A stretch of DNA of 35,946 bases from contig PMSW01000054.1 in assembly GCA_003168215.1 (NCBI GenBank), forward strand, positions 1 through 35,946, read 5' to 3'. The stretch is from Actinomycetota bacterium. GTDB lineage: Bacteria; Actinomycetota; Actinomycetes; Streptosporangiales; Streptosporangiaceae. The position numbers and the translations under genes were made by a program. Position 1 is the stretch's first letter; each line of letters begins with the position of its first letter. A model generated the notes under the pieces. That model had not been told where the DNA came from. It saw nothing but the letters and a program-made list of their open reading frames with translations, and did not search any database. Of this stretch, positions 6,089 to 35,846 are shown piece after piece.

Positions 6089-7633
6089 TCAACAGCTGGC
6101 CGTAGCGTCGACAGTTAAGTCGTAGCTGGCCTCTATCAGCCACCGGCCGTCCTGCACAGCCGCCAGCCAGGCGTTGCCGTCCCCGGTGACCAGCTGGAAC
6201 CGGGCACGCCGGCGCGCACTCGCCGCGGCCCACCACCGCTCGCTGACCGGCCATGGGCCGGCCCAGGCGGTGACCGTCAGCCACGGTCCGCCGCCCGCCG
6301 ACAACCGAGCCGGGGGCGCGGAGGCCTCGGCGCGGCCGGTGACCGTCACCGCATCCCCCGCATCGTCGGTAACCCGGGCAGCCAGCGGCACCGGGTAGAC
6401 CGTGGCCGGAGCAGGAGCGGGAATCCGCCCCGGCCACGGACGGCCCGCCGGAAGGAGGGGCGCCCTGGAATCACCGAAAGGCACCAGCGTCACCTGCTCG
6501 GCGGGATCGCGCCCGCCGGCCAGCACGGGCCGCATCACTGCCTCATGCCCCAGCATGGCCTGCACCCTGGTCGCCGCCCGGGCAACCCGGTCACTGATCA
6601 CGGCGTCCCCCCAGAGGCCGAGCTGGCGGCCCTCGTCGCGCACCAGCTGATCGGGAACCAGCCTTAGCCGGATGATCCCGCCGGCCGGGCTGGCCTCGCC
6701 TGGATCCCTCTTGCCAGGCCCACTGCGCTCAGGATCACTGCGCCCAGCATCACTGCGCCCCGCGTCCTGGCTGGCCCGCCAGCTGTCCAGTTGCCAGCGC
6801 ACCCGCTCGGCCACTGCCAGCGCCGACAGCAGCCCGTCATGCCGCCAGAGCCGGGTAATGTCCCGCCCGTCCGCACATGTTGCCTGCACCTGTACCCGGA
6901 CGCAGGCCAGCCCGCGGGCGGCGAGGCCGGCCTGCATCCGCCCGGCGAGCGCCTTCGCGGCGAACACCACCGGCTCGGCCTGGCCGGCTGGCGGATCGAA
7001 GTCGATATGCACGGAGAGGTCAGCTGATGGCTGGCGGGGCGTCAGCGGGCGGGGGTCCAGGCCGCGTGCCAGCCGGTGGGCGCGCGCGCCCGGCACCCCG
7101 AACCGGTTCGCCGCATCGGCCACCGGCAGCCTGGCAAAATCCCCTAGCGTCCGGATTCCCAGCCGCGGCAGCAGATCGGCGAGCACGGGGACGCCCAGCA
7201 CGCTGACCGGGTAAGGGGCCAGGAAAGCGGGCGTCGCGCCCGGCGTCACGATCACCCCCGGCGTCACGATCACCCCCGGCGTCCCGGTCCCGGCAGAAGC
7301 CCCGGCGGGGTCACGGGGAGGGGCACGGGCAGCGAGCTGGGCGGCGAACAAGCCGTCAGCGACCCCTGCCCGGCAGACGATACCGAGGGCAGCCACCGCG
7401 TCCGTGATCTTCCTGGCGAGTGCTTCCTCGCCACCAAAGTACCGGGCTGGTCCCCCGGCGCCGATGGCGCAAATCCCTGGCCGTACCACCTCCACCCGCG
7501 GGCAGAACTCCGCAACCGCGGCCACCACCTGCTCGAAGGCCCGCGCCTCCGGGCCGGCATCCGGTACATCGGGCGACCAGTCAGGGCACCATACGGCCAG
7601 CACCCGCCGTGGCGCGCCACGCGCTTTGCTCAT
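6089..7633 (-). CDS. imuB: ImuB-like Y-family DNA polymerase homolog
   Basis: MSKARGAPRRVLAVWCPDWSPDVP..., Y-family fold, W-C-P-D-W start typical of ImuB; located directly downstream of an ImuA'-like gene. Confidence 0.85.
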   Translation of the reverse strand: MSKARGAPRRVLAVWCPDWSPDVPDAGPEARAFEQVVAAVAEFCPRVEVVRPGICAIGAGGPARYFGGEEALARKITDAVAALGIVCRAGVADGLFAAQLAARAPPRDPAGASAGTGTPGVIVTPGVIVTPGATPAFLAPYPVSVLGVPVLADLLPRLGIRTLGDFARLPVADAANRFGVPGARAHRLARGLDPRPLTPRQPSADLSVHIDFDPPAGQAEPVVFAAKALAGRMQAGLAARGLACVRVQVQATCADGRDITRLWRHDGLLSALAVAERVRWQLDSWRASQDAGRSDAGRSDPERSGPGKRDPGEASPAGGIIRLRLVPDQLVRDEGRQLGLWGDAVISDRVARAATRVQAMLGHEAVMRPVLAGGRDPAEQVTLVPFGDSRAPLLPAGRPWPGRIPAPAPATVYPVPLAARVTDDAGDAVTVTGRAEASAPPARLSAGGGPWLTVTAWAGPWPVSERWWAAASARRRARFQLVTGDGNAWLAAVQDGRWLIEASYDLTVDATASC

Positions 7634-27696: not shown

Positions 27697-27810
27697 GAAT
27701 TGCCGTCGCGGAATAGTCGCAGTCATCATATTGCGAATTAATCCCGGTAATTGCGGCATTTGGCAGCGGGCAGCGGGCCGATCACCCGCGCTGACGGGGA
27801 GGATCACGAT

Positions 27811-29046
27811 ATGGGGATGAAAGGCATGCTGGCCCGCACGCCGTTTGCTGCGATGGCTGCCTTGCTGTTCCTGTTCTGGCCGACCGGCGGCCTGCCGGGC
27901 AGGGCTGCGGGCACCGCCCGGCCCGCACTGGCCGTGACCGGCCGCACCGTCAGTGGCCCCGCGGTGCCCAGCCCGGGCCTCTCGAGCACCCTGCAGGATG
28001 TCGCCTGCACCTCAGTCCGCAACTGCTGGGCTGTCGGCAGCTACCAGACCGGGGCTGCGCAGCTGAACGAGGCGCTGCACTGGGACGGAACCAGCTGGTC
28101 CGAGATCGCCACCCCCGATCACGGGACCGGCCCGGGCCACCACAGCAGCCTCACCGCCGTCGCGTGCACCTCGGCCAGGAACTGCTGGGCCGTCGGCAGC
28201 TACGCCCGCGGAACCGCGCAGCTGAACGAGGCGCTGCACTGGGACGGAACCAGCTGGTCCAGGATCGCCACCCCCGATCCAGGGATCCCGGGAAGCGGCG
28301 CGCACATGCTTGACGGCGTCAGCTGCGCCTCGCGCACGAGCTGCTGGGCTGTCGGGATCCACATTAGTGACCGCGGGATAGGCCGGAATGCGGTGCTGCG
28401 GTGGAACGGCGCCGGCTGGGCCGCCGTCAACGCGCCAGACCCCGGCGCGAACGTTGCCGGGGATGGAAGGGAACTCTCCGGTGTCGCCTGCCGCTCGGCC
28501 GGCGACTGCCTGGCCGTCGGAGGTTACGTCAGCAAGGCCAGGTCCGAGCGGAACGAGGCGCTCCGCTGGAACGGGACCCGATGGCTGCGGGTCGCCACGC
28601 ACGGCAGCGGCGCACTCAGCAGCGTCACCTGCACAGCCGCTGCGCGCTGCTGGGCCGTCCGGGGGCAGGCCAGCGGCAAGGGGACCATTCGCTGGAACGG
28701 GACGAGCTGGTCCGCCGCCGCCACTCCTGGCAGCGCCGAACTCAACGGCGTGGCCTGCGCCGCTGCCGCCAGTTGCGTGGCCGTCGGCAACCACACCCTC
28801 GGCGGGGCACTCCTGAACGACGTCCTCGGCTGGAACGGGACCAGCTGGGCAGCCGTCGCGGTCCCCGATCCTGGCGGTATCGGCGCCGGCGCCCAGAACA
28901 GGCTCGCGGCGGTCGCCTGCACGTCCGCGGCGAATTGCTGGGCAGTCGGCAGCTACTGGGACAGCACCGCCGCGGCGCGCCGGAACGTCGCACTGCACTG
29001 GAACGGGAACGCGTGGTCCAGCCAGCGGGTTAGCGATGGCACCTGA
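27811..29046 (+). CDS. Secreted protein with seven C-x5-C repeats (putative seven-bladed propeller), paralog 1
   Basis: Repeats of the form GVACTSxRNCWAVGSY...LNEALHWDGTSWS; seven C-x5-C motifs counted; signal peptide; GGAGG ribosome-binding site. Confidence 0.8.
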   Translation: MGMKGMLARTPFAAMAALLFLFWPTGGLPGRAAGTARPALAVTGRTVSGPAVPSPGLSSTLQDVACTSVRNCWAVGSYQTGAAQLNEALHWDGTSWSEIATPDHGTGPGHHSSLTAVACTSARNCWAVGSYARGTAQLNEALHWDGTSWSRIATPDPGIPGSGAHMLDGVSCASRTSCWAVGIHISDRGIGRNAVLRWNGAGWAAVNAPDPGANVAGDGRELSGVACRSAGDCLAVGGYVSKARSERNEALRWNGTRWLRVATHGSGALSSVTCTAAARCWAVRGQASGKGTIRWNGTSWSAAATPGSAELNGVACAAAASCVAVGNHTLGGALLNDVLGWNGTSWAAVAVPDPGGIGAGAQNRLAAVACTSAANCWAVGSYWDSTAAARRNVALHWNGNAWSSQRVSDGT

Positions 29047-29289: not shown

Positions 29290-30648
29290 ATGGAGATGAA
29301 AGGCATGCTGGCGCCCGCGCCGGCTGCTGCTGCGGTAGTTGGCTTGCTGGTCCTGTCCGGGCTGGCCGGCGGGCTGCCGGGCGCGGCGGCAGCCACCGTC
29401 CGGCACGCACCGACCGCGGGACAGGCCGTACCCGGCCGCAGCGCACCCCCTCGCACCGCGAGCAGTCGCACCGCGAGCAGTCGCACCGCGAACGGCCGAG
29501 TCTTCGGCGGCTGGGTGCTGCCGAACCCGGGCATCTCCAGCATCCTGCGGGGAGTTGCCTGCACCTCATCCCGCAACTGCTGGGCGGTCGGCAGCTACGA
29601 GAATTCGACTGCCGAGCTGAACGAGGCGCTGCACTGGGACGGGTCTCGATGGCTGAGGGTCGCCATCCCCTATCCGGGCACCGGCCACCAGAGCAGCCTT
29701 GCCGCCGTCACGTGCATCTCGGCCAGGAACTGCTGGGCCGTCGGCAGCTTCGACCGCGGAACCACGCCGCTGAACGAGGCGCTGCACTGGGACGGAACCA
29801 GGTGGTCCAAGATCGCCACCCCCCAGCCGGGGATGCCAGGAAATGTCGCGAATTCCCTTAACGGCGTCAGCTGCGTCTCGTTCAGGGACTGCTGGGCCGT
29901 CGGGAGCCACACCACTCAGGGCGGGATCGGCGAGAATGCGGCGCTGTGGTGGAATGGCGCACGCTGGTCCGTCGTGCACGTCCCCGAACCCGGCCAGAAA
30001 GTCGTCGGGGATGGCAGGGAGCTCTCCGGCGTTAGCTGCACCACGTTCAACTCCTGCCTGGCCGTAGGAGGCTACGTCGGCGCGGACAGCGCCGAGCTGA
30101 ACGATGCGCTCCGCTGGAACGGGTTCAGCTGGCTGCGGACCACCACCGCCAATCCAGGGACCGGCCACCACAGCAAGCTCACGGCCGTCACGTGCACCTC
30201 GTCCAGCAACTGCTGGGCCGTCGGCAGCTACGATCACGGGGCCGGGCAGTTCAACGAGGCGCTGTACTGGGACGGAACCAGCTGGTCCAGGGTCGCCACC
30301 CCCGATCCGGGGACCTCGGGCAGCAGCGTGCACATCCTTAACGGCGTCAGCTGCGGCTCGCGCTTCAGCTGCTGGGCCGTCGGGAGCCACATCACTGACG
30401 GGATCGGCCACAACGTGGTGCTGGGGTGGAACGGCGTCAGCTGGTCTGCCGTGCACGTCCCACAACCCGGCCAGAAAACCGCTGGGGATGACGGGGATAC
30501 CAGGGAACTGAACGGCGTTTCCTGCACCGGGCACACCCACTGCGTGGCCGTGGGGGGCTACATCAGCTCGGCCAAGACCGAGCGGAACGAGGCGCTTCGC
30601 TGGAACGGGCTCCAATGGCTGAGGTCGTCCCTCGCGACGGCGCACTGA
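29290..30648 (+). CDS. Secreted protein with seven C-x5-C repeats, paralog 2
   Basis: Same repeat architecture and same start MxMKGMLA; seven C-x5-C motifs counted. Confidence 0.8.
   Translation: MEMKGMLAPAPAAAAVVGLLVLSGLAGGLPGAAAATVRHAPTAGQAVPGRSAPPRTASSRTASSRTANGRVFGGWVLPNPGISSILRGVACTSSRNCWAVGSYENSTAELNEALHWDGSRWLRVAIPYPGTGHQSSLAAVTCISARNCWAVGSFDRGTTPLNEALHWDGTRWSKIATPQPGMPGNVANSLNGVSCVSFRDCWAVGSHTTQGGIGENAALWWNGARWSVVHVPEPGQKVVGDGRELSGVSCTTFNSCLAVGGYVGADSAELNDALRWNGFSWLRTTTANPGTGHHSKLTAVTCTSSSNCWAVGSYDHGAGQFNEALYWDGTSWSRVATPDPGTSGSSVHILNGVSCGSRFSCWAVGSHITDGIGHNVVLGWNGVSWSAVHVPQPGQKTAGDDGDTRELNGVSCTGHTHCVAVGGYISSAKTERNEALRWNGLQWLRSSLATAH
29451..29495. repeat. 15-bp x3 in-frame repeat (S-R-T-A-S) in paralog 2
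   Basis: TCGCACCGCGAGCAG x2 then TCGCACCGCGAACGG. Confidence 0.9.
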
Positions 30649-32017: not shown

Positions 32018-33367
32018 ATGCGGGCCGAAGCGCGTCAGGATCCGGCCGCCGGCACCGAGAGCGTAGTGGCGGCGTGGGCCAGGGACAACCCCCGCTCAGG
32101 GGCATTGCATGCCCGTGCCCGGCGGCTGCTGCCCGCTGGCGTGACCCATGACGCGCGCCTCGCCAAGCCGTTCCCGCTGGCCGTCGAGCGGGCCGACGGC
32201 GCACGCAAGTGGGATCTGGATGGCCACGAGCTGATCTGTTACGTCATGGGCCACGGCTCGCTGCTGCTCGGGCATGGTCATCCGGCCGTCGTTGCCGCCG
32301 TCCGCGAGCAGGCGACCAGATCGTTTCATCCGGGCGCCTGCCACGAGCTGGAAAGCGAGTGGGCCGAGGCGGTCATCCGGCTGGTCCCTTCCGCCGAGCG
32401 CGTCCGTTTCACCTCAAGCGGGACGGAAGCGACGCTGCTTGCGCTGCGGCTCGCCCGTGCCGCCACCGGCCGGGGGAAGGTCATCAGGCTGGCCGGGCAT
32501 TTCCACGGCTGGCACGACCAGGTCGCGATCGGGGCTGACCCGCCGTTCGACGGGCCGGACACCGCGGGCCTGCCCCCTGGGATCGTGAGTTCCGTCGTCA
32601 CCATCCCGGCCGACGCGGCCGCCCTGGCCGAGGCACTCGCGGCCGGCGACGTCGCGGCCGTCATCCTTGAGCCCTCCGGGGCGGCCTGGGGGACGGTGCC
32701 GCTGCCTGCCGGGTTCCTCCAGGCGGCTGGCCGGCTGGCTGACGAGTCCGGCGCGCTGCTCGTCTTCGATGAGGTCATCAGTGGCTTCCGCTGGGCGCCC
32801 GGCGGCGTGCAGCAACTCTCCGGGGTGCGCCCGGACCTCACCGCGCTCGGCAAGATCCTGTCCGGCGGCATGCCGGGCGGCGCCGTGTGCGGGCGAGCCG
32901 ACGTGATGGATCACCTCGGCGCAGTCCGCCACGATCCGCGGCGGGTCGCGCACCCCGGTACGCATAACGCCCACCCGCTGTCCGCCGCCGCCGGGGTGAC
33001 CGCGCTCGGCCTGGTGGCCTCGGGCGAGGCGCAGGACGGGGCCGCCCGCCTCGCGGCCTCGCTGCGCGGTGAGCTCACCTCGGTGTTTGAGCGGTGCGGT
33101 GTGGCCGGCCGTGCCTACGGGGAGAGTTCCACCTTTCATCTGCTGCTCGGGCCGGACGGGCCGGAGGAACTCGATCCGGCGACGCTGAAATCCGGGCCCG
33201 CCCGGCAGGTGTCTGCGGCGCTGCATTGCAGCATGCTGCGCTGGGGCGTTCACCTGTTCCGCGGGTCGGGTTTCCTGAGCACCGCGCACAGCGAGCGCGA
33301 TGTCGAGCAGACGGCCGCGGCACTGGCCGCGACGCTCCGGCAGCTGCAGGCCGAGGGGCTGGTGTGA
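32018..33367 (+). CDS. Class-III aminotransferase, glutamate-1-semialdehyde 2,1-aminomutase-like
   Basis: TSSGTEATLLALRLARAATGRGKVIRLAGHFHGWHD; LLVFDEVISGFRW; PLP-Lys region LTALGKILSGGMPGGAVCG. Confidence 0.9.
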   Translation: MRAEARQDPAAGTESVVAAWARDNPRSGALHARARRLLPAGVTHDARLAKPFPLAVERADGARKWDLDGHELICYVMGHGSLLLGHGHPAVVAAVREQATRSFHPGACHELESEWAEAVIRLVPSAERVRFTSSGTEATLLALRLARAATGRGKVIRLAGHFHGWHDQVAIGADPPFDGPDTAGLPPGIVSSVVTIPADAAALAEALAAGDVAAVILEPSGAAWGTVPLPAGFLQAAGRLADESGALLVFDEVISGFRWAPGGVQQLSGVRPDLTALGKILSGGMPGGAVCGRADVMDHLGAVRHDPRRVAHPGTHNAHPLSAAAGVTALGLVASGEAQDGAARLAASLRGELTSVFERCGVAGRAYGESSTFHLLLGPDGPEELDPATLKSGPARQVSAALHCSMLRWGVHLFRGSGFLSTAHSERDVEQTAAALAATLRQLQAEGLV

Positions 33368-33553: not shown

Positions 33554-34732
33554 ATGGAACGTACCTCGTTACTTGTCATCGGCGCCGGACCTTACGGCCT
33601 GTCTACCGCCAGCTACGCAAAGCACGCCGGCATTACTTCCATCATCCTTGGTGAGCCCATGGGATTCTGGCGGCAGAGCATGCCGCGCGGCATGCTGCTG
33701 AGGACCGGCACCGGATGGCAGATCGATCCGCTCCGAACATTTACTCTTCGTGCATATATCGAGGAGCGCGGATTGCGTGAAAAGGATGTGCTCCCGGTAC
33801 CAGCCGAATTGTTCATCGAATACGCAGATTGGTTCCGGCACCAGTATAACCTGGAAGTACGCCGCAGTTTTGTTAAAGACCTGACCCGGCACGACGGCTT
33901 GTTCGAGGCAAGCCTGACAAACGGGAATATAATCATTGCCGATAATGTCGTGGCGGCTCCTGGCGTCAGAGACTTCGCGAACCTGCCGAAGGGAATATCG
34001 CAGCAACTTTCGCCAGGCTGTTATTCACATACCGCACAGTTCACCGACTTCGATCTGGTCGCCGGACGCCGATATCTCATTATAGGCGGCGGGCAAAGCG
34101 CCTTTGAATGGGCCGCTCTCATGTGCGAGGATGGCAAGGCCGAAAAGATCCATATTGTCTATCGTCACGACCCGCCCGCCTTGAGATCCGCAAACCATGA
34201 TTTCTGGGCGTCCGTGGAAGAAATGATGGATCTTACCCTTAGTGTCCGCGGGTGGTTCCGCCGTCTCTCCAGTGCGGATAGGGAGGCGCTTATGCAGCAG
34301 TTCTCCGTGGAGGGCCGACGGAGGCTGGAGCCGTGGCTAGCGGCAAGAATCACCAGGGGATCAATAAAGCAGTGGGCGAAAACGCGCCTAGCCGCCTGCA
34401 AGGAGCGGCCCAACGGTGAGATCGAGGTAATCCTTTCGTGCGGGGATCGAATAGTAGTCGATCATATTATTTGCGCAACCGGCTACCGGGTTGATATACG
34501 AAAGCTCTCCTATATGAGGACATTGACGCGAGCTGGCCCTGCATCGCTAAGTCTCAGCGGAGGCTATCCGGTGCTCGACAATTACTTCCAGTCAGCTATA
34601 CCCGGACTGTTTCTGTCCGGTATTACAGCGGTACGCGACTTCGGGCCATTCTTCAGATTCCTGCGTGGCAGTACAGTCGCTGCCCAGCTCATTGTCTCAA
34701 GGCTAGCCAAGGATTTCGATGGCCGGAATTGA
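33554..34732 (+). CDS. FAD/NAD(P)-binding oxidoreductase, flavin monooxygenase-like
   Basis: LLVIGAGPYGLSTASYAKHAG (FAD GxGxxG), GFWRQSMPRGMLLRTGTGWQIDP, RYLIIGGGQSAFEWAALM (second Rossmann motif), IICATGYR. Confidence 0.85.
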   Translation: MERTSLLVIGAGPYGLSTASYAKHAGITSIILGEPMGFWRQSMPRGMLLRTGTGWQIDPLRTFTLRAYIEERGLREKDVLPVPAELFIEYADWFRHQYNLEVRRSFVKDLTRHDGLFEASLTNGNIIIADNVVAAPGVRDFANLPKGISQQLSPGCYSHTAQFTDFDLVAGRRYLIIGGGQSAFEWAALMCEDGKAEKIHIVYRHDPPALRSANHDFWASVEEMMDLTLSVRGWFRRLSSADREALMQQFSVEGRRRLEPWLAARITRGSIKQWAKTRLAACKERPNGEIEVILSCGDRIVVDHIICATGYRVDIRKLSYMRTLTRAGPASLSLSGGYPVLDNYFQSAIPGLFLSGITAVRDFGPFFRFLRGSTVAAQLIVSRLAKDFDGRN

Positions 34733-35846
34733 GCGCACCAGGAGCGCGGAGAAGGGCTCGGCGCGCCGGCCAGAACTCGGGCATCAACCTTACCAGATGG
34801 GAAAAGCCGTGTCGGCACCTGCTCAGTACACGCCAATCCAGGTGCGTGAGCTGCTGAACTCCGTGCCGCGCATCTGCCTATCTCACCTGCCCACGCCACT
34901 TGATCTAGCGCCAAGGCTATCTGAGCGACTGGGAATTACGCTGAGAATAAAGCGCGAAGACTGCGCTGGCCTGACATTCGGCGGTAACTACGCACGGGCG
35001 GTGGAATTTACCCTTGCTGATGCGCTAGCAGCCAATGCAGACGCGGTGATCCACGGAGCGGCCGGGCAGTCTAATCACTGCCGCCAGGTGGCAGCCGGAT
35101 GCGCCCGGCTAGGTCTGGAATGTCATCTGGTAGTAAGAAACTCATCCAGGACCGTCCATTCTCGCGGCAATCTCCTGCTCGATCACCTGCTAGGAGCTGT
35201 CGTCCATGTCGTCGATGCTGAACTAGGCAATGGCATTGAAGCCGAGAAGAGCCGCCTCTATGAGCGTCTTTCTACGGCCAATCCGCACAAGAACTACTAT
35301 CTGTATGAACGTGACAGAATTAGCCCGCTGGCCACCCTAGCCTCGGCCGAATGCTTCGTTGAAATTTTCGAGCAATCCACAGAGCCAATAGATGTAGTAT
35401 ATTTGTCTTCGGCCGGGGCCAATCAAGCTGGCTTCCTTCTAGCCCGGGACTTGCTCGGACTTAAGACGACCGTGATCGGAGTAGCTCCTATTGACTGGGA
35501 TGCGACTACGATTATCGGGCGATGCTACGATGCCGCCCGCGCGCTACTTGGGCTGCCGCCTGCCCCCCTCGACCCGGACTCGATAGAAAATGTATCGCGG
35601 TATATTGGCCCTGGCTATGCGGAGCCAACGCCTGAGTCGCTGGAAGCGATGACACTGGCTGCTTCACACGAAGCCATCGTGCTCGACCCCGTCTACACTG
35701 GCAAGGCTTTCGCCGCGCTGATCGCCGACGCCGAGCAAGGCGTCATGCGAGAGGGAACGCGAGTCATTTTCGTTCATACGGGCGGCACGCCAGTCTTCGA
35801 TCTATACGGGGACGACATACTTAAGTACCTTGGGCTCCGAGCGTAG
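34719..35846 (+). CDS. Fold-type II PLP enzyme homolog (ACC deaminase/D-cysteine desulfhydrase-like) lacking the canonical PLP lysine
   Basis: IKREDCAGLTFGGNYARAVEFTLADALAANADAVIHGAAGQSNHCRQVAAGCARLGLECHLVV aligns by eye with KRDDLTGLxxGGNKxRKLEFLLADA...QSNHxRQ. Start could also be 34797. Confidence 0.8.
   Translation: MAGIERTRSAEKGSARRPELGHQPYQMGKAVSAPAQYTPIQVRELLNSVPRICLSHLPTPLDLAPRLSERLGITLRIKREDCAGLTFGGNYARAVEFTLADALAANADAVIHGAAGQSNHCRQVAAGCARLGLECHLVVRNSSRTVHSRGNLLLDHLLGAVVHVVDAELGNGIEAEKSRLYERLSTANPHKNYYLYERDRISPLATLASAECFVEIFEQSTEPIDVVYLSSAGANQAGFLLARDLLGLKTTVIGVAPIDWDATTIIGRCYDAARALLGLPPAPLDPDSIENVSRYIGPGYAEPTPESLEAMTLAASHEAIVLDPVYTGKAFAALIADAEQGVMREGTRVIFVHTGGTPVFDLYGDDILKYLGLRA

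Follow-up and report, generated by a model that had tools for sequence, protein, structure and literature searches.

A member of the ACC deaminase/D-cysteine desulfhydrase family with tyrosine at the aligned position of the Schiff-base lysine

The window that we analyzed, a stretch of 35,946 nucleotides from the draft genome of a soil-type actinomycete of the family Streptosporangiaceae (GenBank assembly GCA_003168215.1, contig PMSW01000054.1), contains at its right end an open reading frame, P0001, that encodes a protein of 375 residues. The reading frame is complete, with zero internal stop codons, and the window holds no ambiguous bases. A sequence-only reading of this DNA had described the gene as intact and full-length and as overlapping a flavin monooxygenase-like gene, and both statements hold: the 3' end of the preceding gene, P0002, overlaps P0001 by 14 bp and carries a Shine-Dalgarno-like site. 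The features of the locus are collected in Table 1.

Table 1. Features of the P0001 locus, in window coordinates
Feature	Position	Strand	Basis or remark
P0003, class-III aminotransferase, glutamate-1-semialdehyde-aminomutase-like; possible partner only	32018..33367	+	Profile matches; native codon usage
P0002, FAD/NAD(P) oxidoreductase, flavin-monooxygenase-like, 392 aa	33554..34732	+	Pfam Pyr_redox_3, E 9e-18
AAGGA, Shine-Dalgarno-like site within the P0002 end, 5 nt before the ATG at 34719	34709..34713	+	Sequence
P0001, lysine-less ACC deaminase/D-cysteine desulfhydrase family protein, 375 aa	34719..35846	+	Pfam PF00291 and NCBIfam
TAC codon, Y91 at the Schiff-base lysine position (StDCyD Lys51)	34989..34991	+	K in 82/82 relatives; ungapped alignment with 4d8t and 7ysk
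GCG codon, A94, second K of GGNKxRK	34998..35000	+	H, Q or N in nearest lysine-bearing relatives
Substrate-carboxylate loop Q117-S118-N119-H120 (StDCyD Gln77-His80), kept	35067..35078	+	Alignment; roles from PMC3344862
PLP-phosphate loop S230-G238 (SSAGANQAG)	35406..35432	+	Alignment; T235N the only unusual change
Y300 (StDCyD Tyr261), kept	35616..35618	+	Y in 82/82 relatives
Y326-T327 (StDCyD catalytic base Tyr287 and Thr288), kept	35694..35699	+	Alignment; role from PMC3344862
T354 (StDCyD Thr315, PLP N1 contact), kept	35778..35780	+	Alignment; PMC3344862

P0001 matches the Pfam family PF00291 (PALP) over residues 55-355 with a score of 134.8 bits (cut-off 35, E 5e-39). It thus passes the cut-off of this fold type II family while having tyrosine (Y91) in place of the Schiff-base lysine. 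Among the NCBIfam models, the best-scoring ones are CuyA (NF052482), a D-cysteate sulfo-lyase, with 213 bits and XcbE (NF052537; coenzyme M biosynthesis) with 185 bits, both far below their curated cut-offs of 450 bits. TIGR01275 gives 184 bits (cut-off 289), the DcyD equivalogs (PRK03910 models) 142-164 bits (cut-offs 429-610) and TIGR01274 (AcdS) 138 bits (cut-off 392). The names CuyA, XcbE, DcyD and AcdS were rejected because all of these scores lie below the NCBIfam cut-offs; judged by its profile matches, P0001 belongs to the family but to no named equivalog. A Foldseek search with an AlphaFold model of P0001 (built from three sequences; mean pLDDT 57, pTM 0.58) ranked StDCyD and ACC deaminases at the top, with an rmsd of ~11 Å; at such values the pocket geometry of the model is unusable.

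The replacement of the lysine is read directly from the codons of the cofactor motif: TTC GGC GGT AAC TAC GCA CGG GCG encodes F-G-G-N-Y91-A-R-A94 (the sequence spanning the motif is IKREDCAGLTFGGNYARAVEF). Across the flanks KRED..GL.FGGN and QSNHCRQVAA, the alignment with D-cysteine desulfhydrases and ACC deaminases whose structures are solved is free of gaps (E down to 3e-44). The alignment therefore bears out what had been proposed from the DNA, namely that the lysine is replaced (GGN-Y-A-R-A) between conserved flanks (KRED..GL.FGGN and QSNHxRQVAA). The Schiff-base column is occupied by K in 82/82 aligned relatives, which come from several phyla, and by Y only in P0001; K is also found in 7 extra relatives, 5 of them close and 2 from viral contigs. 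Y91 is thus not noise in a variable column. Nor is K91Y a single lesion, since TAC is at least two substitutions away from every Lys codon. As judged from these alignments, P0001 is intact and belongs to the ACC deaminase/D-cysteine desulfhydrase family (fold type II), but it has tyrosine where the relatives have their Schiff-base lysine.

The rest of the active site is retained. The active site of the Salmonella typhimurium D-cysteine desulfhydrase (StDCyD) includes Asn50, Lys51, Gln77, Ser78, Asn79, His80, Tyr261, Tyr287, Thr288 and Thr315, and proton abstraction is carried out by Tyr287 as the base, not by Lys51 (PMC3344862). The equivalent residues of P0001 are N90, Y91, Q117, S118, N119, H120, Y300, Y326, T327 and T354: nine of the ten are identical, the sole difference being the tyrosine at Lys51. 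In other words, the DcyD set (N50/Q77/S78/N79/H80/Y261/Y287/T288/T315) is found in P0001 at 9/9 positions, and Lys51 is not. StDCyD (PDB 4d8t; PMC3344862) and P0001 thus share the family, the fold and these nine residues, including the base Tyr287 and the QSNH loop, and they differ in Lys51, in the phosphate loop (SGSAGTHAG in StDCyD) and in the N-terminal tail, which is longer in P0001. AcdS (PDB 1f2d, 1j0a, 1rqx) belongs to the same family, but P0001 lacks its signature of a Glu following the catalytic Tyr together with a Leu at the position of T315; instead it has Thr at both the T288 and T315 positions (T327 and T354), as in the DcyD type, and it has lost the lysine. Glu follows the catalytic Tyr in 21/82 relatives, and Leu is present at the T315 position in 21/82. 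The AcdS-type relatives carry Glu at the T288 position and, given the equal counts (21 and 21), presumably the Leu as well.

We also scored P0001 at the 45 positions that are conserved in at least 90% of the relatives, using the alignment of P0001 with the 82 relatives (83 sequences). Forty-one of these positions are intact in P0001, and the four changes are K91Y, G106N, T235N and G319A. By its number of violations P0001 ranks 11th of the 83 sequences, 10 of which have more. With 41/45 conserved sites intact, P0001 is not visibly decaying.

The phosphate loop had been described as altered, and the two changes together as a change of both cofactor contacts. The reading SSAGANQAG is real but, save for T235N (T in 77/82 relatives), the loop is not exceptional: lysine-bearing relatives from the same region of the tree deviate as much (SSATATQGG, SSGGSTGGG, SSSSKGQAG, SAFNITPAG). 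Moreover, in StDCyD the PLP phosphate is held via the main-chain nitrogens of Gly194-Thr198 (PMC3344862). For these two reasons, the claim that both contacts have changed does not stand, the loop was discarded as independent proof of cofactor loss, and the case for a loss of cofactor anchoring comes down to one residue rather than two sites. Speaking against the reading favored below, T235N could weaken phosphate binding, and the tyrosine at position 91 could fill the cofactor site.

To sample relatives, we ran ~1,300 genome scans with P0001 in overlapping samples (relatives, class, family, Acidobacteriota, Chloroflexota and a sample of Pseudomonadota), and none of these scans revealed a lysine-less relative. 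Peptide patterns identified no close P0001 homolog in 84,980 genomes or in viral contigs. The search for homologs sharing GGNY, which the sequence-only reading had recommended, was made and found none: the GGNY DNA pattern gave at least 120 matches in genome contigs, with no fold-II relative among the matches listed, as judged by homology search; in 397 genomes of the phylum it matched only P0001's own window; and neither of its two matches in viral contigs is a relative. A rare lysine-less sister may nevertheless exist beyond the genome-contig matches listed. The literature likewise yielded no direct precedent for a lysine-less fold-II or ACC-deaminase pseudoenzyme.

The nearest relatives, which are 40-45% identical to P0001, form a lysine-bearing subclade from Actinomycetota, Acidobacteriota and Chloroflexota (loci L143, L178, L193-L195 and L209-L212). 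Like P0001, they have the second lysine of GGNKxRK replaced (by H, Q or N) and unusual phosphate loops; unlike P0001, they all keep GGNK, and a P0002-type flavoenzyme is absent beside the loci examined. In a quick maximum-likelihood tree, P0001 groups with L143 and L178 (SH-aLRT 93), nested in the lysine-bearing subclade, on a terminal branch of length 1.36, long branches being unsurely placed in such a tree. Since every relative has K, parsimony leaves a single reading, in which the lysine was lost on the P0001 lineage. From the comparison of sequences, P0001 is a genuine, clean natural active-site variant of a known family, and a singleton so far.

Base composition sets P0001 and P0002 apart from the chromosome. 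Their G+C content is 56-58%, as compared to 70% for the chromosome, their GC3 is 0.61-0.62, as compared to 0.86-0.89 for native genes (the neighboring aminotransferase and glmS), and they contain 21-22 rare codons, against 3-4 in native genes. P0001 and P0002 thus form a two-gene island of low G+C and foreign codon usage, and the two genes were probably acquired together by horizontal transfer. No convincing repeats were found bounding the island, a plasmid collection gave zero nucleotide matches to it, and the only protein match in a phage collection was a short fragment. The right edge of the island is not secured by continuous sequence, since the assembly has an NN join at 35947-35948 (L019 5947-5948), directly past the end of the window and ~100 bp after P0001; past this point the contig runs on to 71 kb in all.

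The P0002-type flavoenzyme was also considered as a conserved neighbor of the family and rejected on account of its absence beside the lysine-bearing relatives examined. Homologs of P0002 either stand alone or accompany ATP-grasp or asparagine-synthase genes, in clusters of polysaccharide type. On plasmids of Bradyrhizobium, Granulicella and Mesorhizobium, distant homologs (L253, L255, L256) occur in clusters of this type close to, or directly beside, genes for ATP-grasp proteins or carboxylate-amine ligases, which suggests an uncharacterised flavoenzyme-ligase pairing.

Homologs of the aminotransferase P0003 adjoin lysine-bearing P0001 homologs at two Chloroflexota loci (L232 7613-9163 and L233 8341-9738; 51% and 41% identity, respectively). 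At L233, a cystathionine-synthase-like gene precedes the P0003 and P0001 homologs, and the three genes together resemble a PLP operon. Gene order thus gives a hint, and only a hint, of a pathway association of P0003 with P0001-type genes.

The reading of P0001 that we favor, to which we give slightly less than an even chance, is that of a horizontally acquired, lysine-less and neofunctionalised paralog, which may still bind B6, either without a covalent link or in the form of an external aldimine, and would have a half-reaction or binding role with the flavoenzyme. On the P0001 lineage, the lysine has given way to tyrosine with all the other mapped catalytic and substrate-binding residues kept. 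Without the lysine there should be no resting PLP Schiff base (internal aldimine) and no product release by transimination, so, we infer, no normal lyase cycle. Because proton abstraction in the family falls to the tyrosine that P0001 retains (Y326) rather than to the lysine, an amino-acid-like ligand is most likely still taken. B6 would then be held without a covalent bond or be taken up as an external aldimine that is already formed, and the Y326 base together with the substrate loop would hold, or half-react, a PLP-amino-acid or PMP-keto-acid adduct. P0001 would thereby carry out a single half-reaction, or serve in binding, in a pathway shared with P0002, the flavin oxidoreductase whose gene overlaps its own.

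Several elements of this scheme have precedents. An ACC deaminase (HsACCD) engineered to carry K51T retains the ability to bind ACC, which it holds as an external aldimine (PMC3344862). The sugar 3-dehydratases E1, ColD and SpnQ are natural B6 enzymes that have lost the catalytic lysine (Lys to His) and are functional, and E1 works with a flavin-containing reductase, E3 (PMC8987622). P0001 resembles E1 and ColD in the replacement of the lysine, B6 chemistry in P0001 being conjectural; the dehydratases differ from it in that they are PMP-using relatives of fold type I aminotransferases, have His instead of Lys and show no homology to P0001. These three enzymes, as well as CYSL-1 (see below), are precedents only and not homologous evidence for P0001. 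By analogy, P0001 and P0002 might go further and constitute a fold-II counterpart of E1/E3 and ColD, i.e. a transferred two-gene unit in which P0001 would act on PMP or external aldimines with its tyrosine base and P0002 would supply or consume a reactive imine, but we regard this extended version as a long shot.

A natural loss of the lysine with the pocket kept would test the dependence of fold-type II B6 enzymes on the internal aldimine, a question hitherto approached via engineered mutants such as K51T. If P0001 is active, it would provide lysine-independent B6 chemistry in fold type II; if it is inactive, it would show neatly how a catabolic lyase can become a binding protein. It would deserve much more attention if it proved to have orthologs or to carry out B6 chemistry.

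The rival that fares best, although we deem it rather unlikely, is that P0001 is a pure pseudoenzyme, which no longer binds B6 at all and acts instead as a partner protein, structural or ligand-sensing, e.g. of the flavoenzyme. CYSL-1, a fold-II homolog that has lost its biosynthetic activity and is now a regulator binding EGL-9 (PMC5562914), provides a precedent for such a fate. The loss of Lys51, T235N and the change of the second Lys to Ala fit this explanation, as does the overlap with P0002, which suggests translational coupling. However, the equivalents of N50, Y261, Y287 and T315 are kept, which is unexpected if B6 binding was abandoned long ago.

That P0001 is instead a recently inactivated foreign gene, which lost the lysine after its transfer and whose remainder has yet to decay, we consider improbable. 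Its status as a singleton, its foreign composition, its long terminal branch and the lack of lysine-less relatives in the ~1,300 genome scans are all in keeping with such a history, but the gene has no frameshift or stop, its conserved sites are as intact as those of many lysine-bearing relatives, the change from K to Y takes at least two steps and the overlapping partner gene is also intact. What had been named as speaking against a genuine variant was a solitary mutant among GGNK homologs, in a gene undergoing decay; the first half of this description applies, the homologs being all GGNK and P0001 standing alone, whereas visible decay is absent.

A sequence or assembly error is very unlikely. 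The assembly is an incomplete draft (74.6% complete, 176 contigs) and the NN join lies close to the gene, but the motif differs by at least 4 bases in two codons, the frame is unshifted and the surrounding 375 codons are clean.

The least credible explanation is that another lysine of P0001 took over the Schiff base: the protein still has eight lysines, but K78 and K329 are conserved (82/82 and 77/82, respectively) in relatives that also keep Lys51 and hence have other roles, K12 and K29 are located in the N-terminal tail that most relatives lack, and K177, K191, K249 and K369 fall in variable regions away from all alignment-mapped active-site segments, so that P0001, by alignment, is without a candidate replacement lysine. 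Another lysine at the PLP C4' position, placed there by structural alignment, had been named in the sequence-only reading as counter-evidence.

Three further observations concern the surroundings and the genome. Two adjacent open reading frames of the window (27751-29046 and 29290-30648) encode similar secreted-looking proteins with repeats like NCWAVGSY..LNEALHWDGTSWS..ATPDPG; a propeller-like repeat protein seems to have been duplicated in tandem here. Elsewhere in the same genome, a fold-II PLP gene is split over two frames (G000:C110:6447-6926 and 6929-7297), possibly by a frameshift or an assembly error. Finally, between the gene at 35925-36725 and glmS, a perfect 15-bp inverted repeat with a 4-nt loop (TCAATATCCTGCCCG; L019 6764-6797) has the appearance of a terminator.
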